The translations under genes were made by a program, and so were the position numbers. This document shows positions 40,951 to 49,414 of a stretch of 64,000 nucleotides of DNA, piece after piece. The notes beneath the pieces are model-generated. The model saw only the letters and a list, made by a program, of their open reading frames with translations, was not told the origin of the DNA and searched no databases. Position 1 is the stretch's first letter; each line of letters starts with the position of its first letter. The DNA is from Phyllobacterium endophyticum (lineage in GTDB: Bacteria; Pseudomonadota; Alphaproteobacteria; Rhizobiales; Rhizobiaceae). Where the stretch lies: contig NZ_PGGN01000001.1 in assembly GCF_003010935.1 (NCBI RefSeq), forward strand, positions 310,001-374,000, written 5' to 3'.

Positions 40951-41006
40951 TGCATCACTCCACTATTGAGATCCCGGCGCTTGCCGAACGACCGTCTCTC
41001 TTGTTT

Positions 41007-46034: not shown

Positions 46035-46571
46035 ATTCGCCGACCCTTTAGAGCCCAGGCGGTCCAGAAAGATGGACCTCGTTCCAACCGCGATATCCGC
46101 GTACCTCAGGTACAGCTTATCGATGCCGAAGGTGAAAACCACGGGATCGTAACCATCCAGGCAGCATTGGCGATGGCCGATGAGGCGGGGCTTGATCTCG
46201 TCGAGATCGTACCCAATGCCGAACCGCCAGTCTGCAAGATCGTTGATCTTGGTAAGCTGAAATACCAGGGCCAGAAGAAGGCCGCGGAAGCGCGCAAGAA
46301 GCAGAAGACGGTCGAGATCAAAGAAATCAAGATGCGCCCGAATATCGACACGCATGATTATGACGTGAAGATGAAGGCGATCAAGCGCTTCTTTGAAGAG
46401 GGTGACAAGGTCAAGGTTACGTTGCGGTTCCGCGGCCGCGAAATGGCCCACCAGGAACTCGGCATGCGCCTCTTGGACAAGGTCAAGGAAGATACGCTGG
46501 AAATTTCCAAGGTCGAGGCCGAACCTCGGCTTGAGGGCCGCCAGATGATGATGGTTCTGGCGCCGCGCTGA
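46035..46571 (+). CDS. infC: Translation initiation factor IF-3, ATT start codon
   Basis: Binds the 30S subunit and checks start-codon and initiator tRNA. The 178-residue product begins (I/M)[19 protein letters not shown], the usual rhizobial N-terminus. The N domain includes [12 protein letters not shown], and the C domain [19 protein letters not shown]. The start is ATT at 46035, nine bases after AGGAG. An in-frame TAA sits at 46014, and the first in-frame ATG (46167) is inside the N domain. ATT is the known autoregulated infC start in E. coli. Confidence 0.95.
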
Positions 46572-47333: not shown

Positions 47334-47366
47334 AAACCGCCCGGCAGGGCATGCCGTGGCGGTTTT
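47334..47366 (+). terminator. Terminator after the ICMT-like gene
   Basis: AAACCGCC (47334-47341) pairs with GGCGGTTT (47358-47365), with an inner GGCA/TGCC pair and one more T. This isolates the rpmI transcript start region. Confidence 0.75.
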
Positions 47367-47404
47367 GTATGCTTTCAGGCTTTGGTCGGCCTGAAGTTAA
47401 CAAC

Positions 47405-47440
47405 AGAGGCGGTTATTTCGCAGAAATGACAGGGCCCTCA
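47405..47440 (+). repeat. Hairpin repeat copy 1, rpmI leader
   Basis: GAGGCGGTTATTTC (47406-47419), GCA loop, GAAATGAC (47423-47430), then GCCCTC (47434-47439). The 8-bp inner stem has one G-U pair and the outer GAGG/CCTC arms close the element. The same unit recurs before rplT and pheS. The start codon is 63 nt downstream. Confidence 0.75.
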
Positions 47441-47451
47441 AACAGAAAAGA

Positions 47452-47486
47452 GGCGCAGCGTGCCGAAGGCACGACAGGAAAGCGCC
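47452..47486 (+). promoter_or_regulatory. Second hairpin of the rpmI leader
   Basis: CGTGCC (47459-47464) and GGCACG (47468-47473) form a 6-bp stem with a GAA loop. Outer GGCGC (47452-47456) and GCGCC (47482-47486) arms can enclose it. It ends just before the AAGGAG ribosome site of rpmI, suggesting a translation-control leader. Confidence 0.5.
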
Positions 47487-47502
47487 AATAAGGAGTAGCA
47501 AA

Positions 47503-47703
47503 ATGCCCAAGATGAAGACCAAATCTGCTGCCAAGAAACGGTTCAAGATTACCGGGACTGGCAAAGTCAAAGCCGCCGCCGCTGGCAAACGCCATGGCAT
47601 GATCAAACGTTCGAACAAATTCATTCGTGATGCACGCGGGACGATGGTCCTGGCTGATGCCGATGCGAAAATCGTGAAGAAGTTCCTGCCAAACGGTCTT
47701 TGA
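47503..47703 (+). CDS. rpmI: 50S ribosomal protein L35
   Basis: 66-residue, very basic ribosomal protein, [20 protein letters not shown] at the N-terminus and [17 protein letters not shown] later, as in the bacterial L35 family. AAGGAG lies seven bases upstream of the ATG. It is followed by rplT after 79 bp that contain hairpin repeat copy 2, so expression of L20 may be separately tuned. Confidence 0.98.
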
Positions 47704-47726
47704 TCGGGCAAACGTTATCCATCCCA

Positions 47727-47764
47727 GGAGGCGGTCATTTCGGAAGAAATGGCAACGAGCCTCG
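47727..47764 (+). repeat. Hairpin repeat copy 2, rpmI-rplT intergenic
   Basis: GAGGCGGTCATTTC (47728-47741), GGAA loop, GAAATGGC (47746-47753), then GCCTC (47759-47763). The inner stem is 8 bp with one G-U pair and the outer stem GAGGC/GCCTC is 5 bp. It ends 19 nt before the rplT start. Confidence 0.8.
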
Positions 47765-47782
47765 AGTTAAGGAGATCATATC

Positions 47783-48187
47783 ATGGCACGTGTAAAACGG
47801 GGCGTTACGTCCCACGCCAAGCATAAAAAAGTTCTGAAGCAGGCTGAGGGTTTCCGTGGCCGCCGCAAGAACACGATCAAGACCGCCAAGGCTGCTGTCG
47901 ATCGTTCGAAGCAATATGCCTATCGCGATCGCAAGAACAAGAAGCGCACTTTCCGCGCGCTCTGGACCCAGCGCATCAACGCTGCTGTTCGCGAACATGG
48001 CTTGACCTATAGCCGCTTCATCGACGGTCTGTCGAAGTCCGGCATCGAGGTTGACCGCAAGGTTCTGTCGGATCTCGCGATCCATGAGCCGGAAGCATTC
48101 GGTGCGCTCGTGGCTTCTGCAAAGAAGGCTCTCGAGTACCTGAAGAACACCACACCGAACGCTTTCGAAGGCGCTGTACACGCTTAG
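47783..48187 (+). CDS. rplT: 50S ribosomal protein L20
   Basis: 134-residue basic protein needed for early 50S assembly. In E. coli and Bacillus, L20 represses its own operon by binding leader RNA that mimics its rRNA site. [40 protein letters not shown] and [20 protein letters not shown] are typical. AAGGAG lies upstream. Hairpin copy 2 abuts this ribosome site, and a terminator follows the gene. Confidence 0.98.
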
Positions 48188-48225
48188 TCAGCCGCTCCCA
48201 AAGCATTCACGAAACTAGATTTGGG

Positions 48226-48258
48226 AAACCCGCGCTGGCTCGGCTGGCGCGGGTTTTT
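48226..48258 (+). terminator. Rho-independent terminator after rplT
   Basis: Perfect 10-bp arms AAACCCGCGC (48226-48235) and GCGCGGGTTT (48247-48256) with an 11-nt loop and TT after. It lies upstream of pheS, so pheST needs its own promoter or read-through. Confidence 0.88.
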
Positions 48259-48280
48259 CGATTTTCTGTATGGACGAGCA

Positions 48281-48314
48281 AGAGGCGGTCATTTCGTGGA
48301 AATGACGGGATCCT
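48281..48314 (+). repeat. Hairpin repeat copy 3, pheS leader
   Basis: GAGGCGGTCATTTC (48282-48295), GTG loop, GAAATGAC (48299-48306), then GGGATCCT (48307-48314). The inner 8-bp stem is perfect and the outer pairing is about 3 bp. It ends 18 nt before the pheS ATG, at nearly the same distance as copy 2 from rplT. Confidence 0.8.
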
Positions 48315-48331
48315 AGCAACAGGTGAGAACG

Positions 48332-49414
48332 ATGGATGACCTGATACAACTGGAAAGCGTGCTTGCCGCGCAGATCGAGTCAGCAAATGACGAAGCTGCC
48401 ATAGAGGCGGTCCGCATCGCTGCGCTCGGCAAGAAGGGTTCGATTTCAGAGAAGCTCAAGTCGCTCGGCTCCATGTCGCCGGAAGAGCGGCAGCTCCAGG
48501 GCCCTGCGATCAACGGGCTGAAGAATCGGATTGCGGAAGCGCTGACCGCCCGCAGGAATGCGCTCAGGGACGCTGCTATCAGCTCGCGCCTTGAAACTGA
48601 GAAGGTGGATATCACGCTTCCCGTGCGCGCTGCGCCGGCAGAACGCGGGCGCATTCATCCCATCAGCCAGGTTGTCGATGAAATCACTGCGATCTTCGCC
48701 GACATGGGCTTCTCCATCGCCGAAGGTCCCGACGTCGAGACCGACTATTATAACTTCACCGCGCTCAATTTCCCCGAAGGCCATCCGGCGCGTGAGATGC
48801 ATGACACCTTCTTCTTCAATCCGGACGAGAATGGCGAGCGGCGGGTGTTGCGTACGCATACGAGCCCGGTCCAGATTCGCACGATGGAAAACCAGAAGCC
48901 GCCTATTCGCATCGTCATTCCCGGCAAGACTTACCGTATGGACAGCGATGCCACCCACTCGCCCATGTTCCATCAGGTGGAGGGACTGGTCATCGACAAA
49001 ACTGCCAACGTCGCCAATATGAAATGGGTGCTGGAGGAGTTCTGCAAGGCATTTTTCGAAGTGCCGTCGCTGAAGATGCGCTTCCGTCCATCCTACTTCC
49101 CCTTCACCGAGCCTTCGCTGGAAGTGGATATCCAGTGCGACCGTTCCGGCAGGGAAGTCAGGTTTGGCGAAGGCACCGACTGGATGGAAATTCTCGGCTG
49201 CGGCATGGTTCATCCGAATGTGCTGCGCGCCGGTGGTCTCGATCCGGACGAATATCAGGGCTTTGCCTGGGGCATGGGGATCGATCGCATAGCCATGCTG
49301 AAATACGGCATGCCGGACCTGCGCGCCTTCTTCGACGCCGACGTTCGCTGGCTGCAGCATTACGGCTTCCGTCCGCTCGACATCCCGACATTGTTTGGCG
49401 GCCTGAGCGCCTGA
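48332..49414 (+). CDS. pheS: Phenylalanine-tRNA ligase alpha subunit
   Basis: Catalytic subunit of the (alpha-beta)2 class II synthetase. The 360-residue product has an N-terminal coiled coil (about 1-85), motif 2 near [10 protein letters not shown], and motif 3 [18 protein letters not shown] chose ATG 48332 with AGGTGAG upstream; a GTG at 48323 is an alternative. pheT follows after 63 bp without the hairpin repeat. I found no Phe-rich leader peptide, so attenuation of the E. coli kind is not supported. Confidence 0.97.

Follow-up and report, generated by a model that had tools for sequence, protein, structure and literature searches.

The hairpins that precede rpmI, rplT and pheS in Phyllobacterium endophyticum are most probably copies of a palindromic insertion element, some 36-45 bp in length and low in copy number, that has spread through the Rhizobiaceae; we put the probability of this reading at roughly 0.7. 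Its core comprises a constant 5' box (CAAGAGGCGUGGAG), a stem of 4-5 bp that is free in sequence but complementary, and a constant 3' box (CGACAGGGA), with an outer GAGG/CCUC stem that sometimes closes it. Copies are found both in the 5' gaps of housekeeping operons and within ORFs, in all three reading frames; their presence differs between near relatives, some stand in tandem, and some appear to have decayed. An insertion element of the Rickettsia palindromic element (RPE) type fits these hairpins better than an operator does, because copies are inserted in frame, occur in tandem, are patchily present and lie at unrelated host genes. The element is presumably mobile, and most of its copies are probably tolerated passengers. 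Together, our results indicate that the repeat is real and more widespread than first reported, and that a role at the RNA level is possible.

The repeated hairpin at the rpmI-rplT-pheS locus

The 64,000-nt stretch of DNA that we analysed (the window) carries on its forward strand an ORF at 47503-47700, which we take to be rpmI (L35) and whose relatives occupy the same position in tblastn searches, followed by rplT (L20; 47783-48184; TIGR01032) and pheS (48332-49411; TIGR00468). By L20 sequence, the closest named records are Phyllobacterium, at 98-99% identity. On the same strand, copy 1 of the palindromic element lies in the rpmI leader (47406-47439), copy 2 in the rpmI-rplT gap (47728-47763), and copy 3 in the rplT-pheS gap (48282-48315), after a terminator-like hairpin behind rplT (48221-48261). 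Model R1 scores these copies at 52.4, 39.2 and 46.5 bits, copies 1 and 3 being part of its seed and copy 2 not; model R2 calls copy 3 in the window with an E-value of 0.0043 and leaves copy 2 uncalled.

The initial annotation had described three repeated hairpins at these positions, and this description is borne out: counted over both strands, the motif ATTTC-N3-4-GAAATG matches five times in the window, where 0.07 matches are expected, the five coming from the three copies, of which two are palindromic. Moreover, the exact 5' arm, GAGGCGGTYATTTC, occurs three times in the whole 5.5-Mb genome, all at rpmI, rplT and pheS, and the nine places elsewhere in the genome with one mismatch to this arm are, by eye, without the hairpin. 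The inner stems (GUUAUUUC/GAAAUGAC in copy 1, GUCAUUUC/GAAAUGGC in copy 2 and GUCAUUUC/GAAAUGAC in copy 3) are all fully pairable, and the two substitutions within them produce U-G pairs, as had been proposed. The outer arm is CCTC in copies 1 and 2, and CCTA, with one pair broken, in copy 3. Folding of the three copies is modestly better than that of shuffled sequences (z of -1.94, -2.25 and -0.96, respectively). The distance of 18-19 nt first given between copies 2 and 3 and their start codons holds for copy 2 (19 nt from the rplT ATG at 47783) and not for copy 3, which ends 16 nt upstream of the conserved ATG of pheS at 48332.

The count of three, correct for these hairpins, had missed copy 1b, a second element in the rpmI leader (47446-47487, + strand) with a different stem, GTGCC/GGCAC, and a fold z of -4.71. 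Copy 1b is the sole R2 match in its own genome at E<=0.1, and a weak one (E 0.0275, over 47446-47480); within the window, R2 ranks it first, copy 3 second and copy 1 fourth. Two further R2 matches, at 46459 and at 1125 inside an ORF that is presumably dephospho-CoA kinase, were judged to be chance. A tentative, decayed copy, recognised from its sequence, lies in the trpF-trpB gap (40968-41000, - strand); its fold z is -1.80, with 10 of 200 shuffles equally good, and neither R1 nor R2 calls it in the window. In genome G455 (locus L118), the trpF-trpB gap contains a strong R1 match and a weak one.

Constant boxes enclose a covarying stem

In other Rhizobiaceae, the element takes the form CAAGAGGCGUGGAG-stem-CGACAGGGA, and its stem varies yet stays paired. 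A pattern that fixes just the two boxes matched 21 sites in 17 of 247 family genomes, representing 10 of 109 genera, and was absent from the other 230 genomes. Across 20 distinct copies, 97.9% of stem cells are paired, compared with 77.1% after shuffling, and double-change cells number 26 versus 7.6; two of five covariation measures in this set fail to beat the shuffles (pairs with a double change, 280/500; pair types, 317/500). For 30 copies, pairing reaches 99.5% and double-change cells 37 versus 7.3, and in two of these copies a G-C pair within the boxes is replaced by C-G. The constancy of the boxes is partly imposed by the search patterns, which leave the pairing of the stem unconstrained. 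The boxes could stack a GGAG/CGAC tandem G-A step onto the stem. At some sites, copies stand in tandem.

In sister genera, forms at or near AACAAGAGGCGTGGAG-stem-CGACAGGGA precede rpmI: these are Brucella daejeonensis (L198), Falsochrobactrum (L197), a Brucellaceae metagenome-assembled genome (L196) and Mesorhizobium (L216), and in B. daejeonensis and Falsochrobactrum the family form precedes pheS as well. The Phyllobacterium variant, GAGGCGGUCAUUUC-loop-GAAAUGACAGGGA-CCUC, is found at rpmI, rplT, pheS, pnp and trpB. It is linked to the family form by the boxes and positions that the two have in common, by two rpmI copies in Phyllobacterium that take the family form, and by R2 scores that are weak and leave copy 2 uncalled, a link that we count as a weakness of our reading. 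The E-values of all models come from a short calibration.

Presence of the element differs among Phyllobacterium species

Model R1 was trained on alignment A3, which holds 12 copies, 11 of them taken from genus loci that the model goes on to match; these are 12 of the 23 rows of alignment A2, the remaining rows, with 3' ends shifted by MAFFT, having been left out. At E<=1, with 150 candidates scored per genome, R1 matched 22 times, in 11 of the 19 congeneric genomes; assigned by position, these matches are eight before rpmI, five before rplT, six before pheS, two before pnp and one before trpB. The view that one repeated, RNA-like element is concentrated at rpmI, rplT and pheS is thus supported by 19 of the 22 matches, and a search of the genus loci with R1 repeats the counts for these three genes. 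Because R1 was trained largely on these loci, many of its matches in the genus are expected, and the information of the search is the absence of matches elsewhere. The Phyllobacterium-type hairpin pattern occurred in two of 297 genomes from the family, each of them congeneric, and within the genus in 8 of 20. Covariation is weak among the 12 mostly Phyllobacterium copies of A3; the strong signal is that of the family-wide copies.

Near relatives differ in which copies they carry. Of 19 congeners, 5 carry the element in the rplT gap and 14 lack it there, this gap being 73-79 nt long with the element versus 19-42 nt without; in the pheS gap, 6 of the 19 carry it and 13 lack it. A tree of rpmI, rplT and pheS combined, built on 1677 columns and with stars on 7 of its 16 inner branches, shows five changes of state at rplT and one at pheS. 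Gains and losses look alike on this tree, and the common rplT site also allows one old insertion followed by several losses.

Beyond the genus, R1 (E<=1) matched 2 of 60 order-level loci, both of them rpmI leaders from the same family that carry the family form (L048 and L050, the L048 copy being an R1 seed), and 9 of 80 named loci on the + strand at the same threshold. The initial annotation had named two observations that would weigh against its proposal. One, that leaders of related genera lack the stem, largely describes what we found; the other, that the element is a dispersed repeat, does so in part, as the element is dispersed but in low copy.

Other hairpins were also seen in these gaps. 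A second type, near GAGGCCCGAAACTC-loop-GAGCGAACGGG, occurs in some Phyllobacterium rpmI leaders (L152, L154, L156, L160, L161 and L162), sometimes beside the first. The pheS gap of genome G211 carries a 7-bp hairpin of different sequence, which we excluded as a copy. A loose pattern, GAGGN{12,34}ACAGGN{1,5}CCTC, gave 184 matches in the 19 genomes, compared with 130 when read backwards, and these were set aside as mostly chance.

Copies precede translation genes and enter ORFs, almost always in sense orientation

Of the 21 sites matched by the strict box pattern, 16 precede rplC (5), pheS (5), rpmI (5) or ffh (1); three lie inside ORFs, and two are downstream of an apparent sdhB (the names sdhA and sdhB at these sites are our assumption). 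Four of the five rplC contexts were scanned, and the fifth shares the same start. We then applied R2 to 24 genomes picked by hand, most of which had matches already. This yielded 46 matches at E<=0.1, 0-5 per genome with 150 candidates scored in each; 36 have E-values below 1e-5, and 10 are weak (E >0.001) and unclassified except for those in the window, a pheS tandem (G391) and one in genome G446. Contexts found by R2 beyond the strict pattern are glyQ (twice), hisS, mutS and further uvrB copies.

We found copies inserted in frame in uvrB, glyQ, hisS and mutS, and also in a gene whose match to a mobile-pair protein is weak and falls below the cut-off; these in-ORF copies are read in all three phases. 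In GlyQ, the element forms a 15-residue insertion without counterpart in a solved homologue; in uvrB, the copies are located in the C-terminal tail, past the family profile. Three further observations concern individual loci. The HisS of G151 (L356, 1478-3412) is much longer than the profile and contains two tandem element-like peptides. At L357 (1850-2180), a tandem pair of elements downstream of the apparent sdhB is flanked by a seemingly duplicated sdhB 3' end. In Brucella-type pheS gaps (L304-L307, L197 and L198), one to three tandem copies are present, and AGGGA from the 3' box, 7-8 nt upstream of the ATG, may serve as a ribosome-binding site.

We found that 35 of the 36 R2 matches with E <1e-5 are sense to the gene that they precede or enter, the single antisense copy being one behind sdhB; all ten listed in-ORF copies are sense, and the weak match in G446 is antisense to an apparent ORF. 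Several copies are non-independent (the same site in related genera), and we therefore give this bias without a probability. The 30 copies contain few stop codons in any of the six frames; since these frames are mostly open, stop codons fail to explain the bias. The sense bias suggests that the element is under selection, or acts, as RNA. Together with the bias to translation genes, it is the main result against a plain passenger; plain DNA mobility does not predict a sense bias. Also counted against the insertion reading are the very low copy number (0-5 per genome in the 24 chosen genomes) and the fact that no transposase or clean target duplication was noticed in an unsystematic look.

Shared translational control or RNase processing by the hairpin is possible. 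The hairpin could be a shared post-transcriptional control site through which one RNA-binding protein, other than L20, co-controls translation genes, with the in-ORF copies as strays. The predominance of sense copies in largely open sequence, even with many of them non-independent, would fit such a site, as would the bias to rpmI, rplT, pheS, rplC, ffh and pnp, the near-constant boxes with their possible G-A step (partly fixed by the patterns), and the placement of AGGGA before pheS. However, copies also reside in uvrB, mutS and the mobile-type gene and downstream of the apparent sdhB, and the element is missing from most congeneric rplT and pheS gaps (14 and 13 of 19) and, in its strict form, from 230 of 247 family genomes; we consider a shared control site unlikely. 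A bolder version, to which we give similarly low odds, is that the hairpin is a transposing cis-regulatory RNA, kept almost wholly sense, that ties the ribosomal-protein, tRNA-synthetase, SRP and PNPase messages of the Rhizobiaceae to one RNA-binding factor and is read as peptide inside ORFs. We regard it as distinctly improbable that the hairpins serve RNase processing or mRNA stability: they stand between cistrons, and hairpins of MITE type in transcripts can be RNase III or RNase E sites (PMC10969869, in excerpt), but the in-ORF copies would then cut essential messages.

A conserved leader, unrelated to the repeat, precedes rpmI

Upstream of copy 1 lies a second structure, which we term leader A (47334-47374) and which is unrelated to the repeat. 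Its P1, an ACCGCC-type helix, pairs 47334-47341 with 47358-47365, and its P2 is an invariant CGGC/GCCG helix (47342-47345 with 47353-47356) closing the loop AGGGCAU. A possible pseudoknot (47347-47374) would pair GGGCAU (47347-47352) with AUGCUU (47369-47374); this helix has 6 bp in 39 of 69 leaders and is shorter in the others, with a mean longest helix of 5.22 versus 4.33 after shuffling.

The core of leader A, GGGC(A)UGCC, is present in 72 of 79 leaders (60 from the order and 19 from the genus) and in 80 of 80 named loci. A slightly looser pattern found it in 23 of 30 class-level loci, the 30 best-scoring L20 matches from 113 genomes, compared with 0.55 expected in shuffles. As controls, 174 of 189 leaders contain the core, versus 0 after one shuffle of each and 3 within the first 320 nt of rplT. 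In an alignment of 48 sequences (A4: 47 leaders and the window, with CGGC-GGGC spacing of <=9 nt and duplicates removed), 95.3% of cells are paired, compared with 86.8% after shuffling and 35-55% when slid, and double-change cells number 49 versus 13.3. Model R3 matches the window, one of its own seeds, at 47334-47365 (+ strand) with E 1.3e-15. It also matches 19 of 19 chosen named loci and, at class level, 8 of 30 loci at E<=0.01 and 12 of 30 at E<=1; it has no match in the E. coli rpmI locus.

Leader A has no match in Rfam 15. L20 leaders have been reported for Gammaproteobacteria, Firmicutes and Deltaproteobacteria, and the table of new leaders in the same source, as excerpted, has no alphaproteobacterial entry for L20 (PMC7247131). 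Among the literature matches listed, we recognised no description of the hairpin element or of an alphaproteobacterial L20 leader. Like the L20 r-leaders of E. coli, B. subtilis and Deltaproteobacteria, leader A is a structured, conserved and covarying RNA before the L20 genes, and it may hold a pseudoknot; unlike them, it is without an Rfam 15 match. The E. coli L20 leader holds a pseudoknot. By eye on A4, leader A contains G-C pairs and no clear AA dimer. From its position, leader A is a candidate L20 r-leader.

L20 feedback, if present, is more likely to act via leader A than via the repeat hairpin, which had been proposed as an L20-binding site. It is very improbable that the hairpin is an L20 operator, repeated along the operon and mimicking 23S rRNA: there are eight copies before rpmI and five before rplT in the genus, and in some copies GGGAA lies beside a paired CC, resembling E. 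coli 23S GGGAAGGCC, but this likeness is loose and unkept across copies, the AA beside CC is not kept in the window copies (GGGCCC, AACGAGCC and GGGATCC), the element also precedes pnp, trpB, rplC and ffh and enters uvrB, glyQ, hisS and mutS in frame, and the structure conserved at rpmI is leader A. Other L20 leaders keep an AA dimer beside two G-C pairs (PMC7247131, in part), a feature that is, by eye, unconserved in the window copies of the hairpin. The 23S rRNA of the P. endophyticum assembly was not found by a family search.

Between leader A and copy 1 we observed another small hairpin, CAGGC-UUUGGUCG-GCCUG (47376-47393, + strand). By eye and uncounted, its loop UUUGGUCG is kept in relatives while its stem changes (CAGGC/GCCUG, CGGGC/GCCCG and CAGAC/GUCUG), and related forms are also present in Mesorhizobium, Brucella and Bartonella leaders.

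Comparison with known palindromic repeats

The insertion element that we propose is comparable to the RPEs by description, and we have not filed it as an RPE. RPEs are palindromic, and many lie in frame within alphaproteobacterial ORFs (excerpts of PMC10969869 and PMC3733652), as do copies of this element. In contrast, RPEs measure 95-150 bp (PMC10969869 and PMC2267715, both in part), whereas the element measures about 41-45 bp, has few copies per genome, and has a stem that covaries between constant boxes.

The GTAG/CGTC-tagged REPs are likewise palindromic repeats, of 20-40 bp, and are found in Alphaproteobacteria among others, CGTC repeats being missing in Brucellaceae (PMC3733652, as excerpted). 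Unlike REPs, which are high copy, the element lacks a terminal GTAG/CGTC tag, by eye on alignment A6. Bru-RS, the palindromic repeats of the sister genus Brucella, are 103-118 bp long, with 222 sequences listed in the available part of PMC2267715; by that description, they are set apart from the element.

Implications

Palindromic insertions that code for protein have been reported for Rickettsia; these findings would extend them to the Rhizobiaceae, in a form with a stem that covaries between constant boxes and an orientation that is nearly always sense. Whether such an element is a selfish repeat or a mobile RNA module becomes a testable question. In addition, leader A represents a widely conserved alphaproteobacterial rpmI leader unmatched by Rfam 15.
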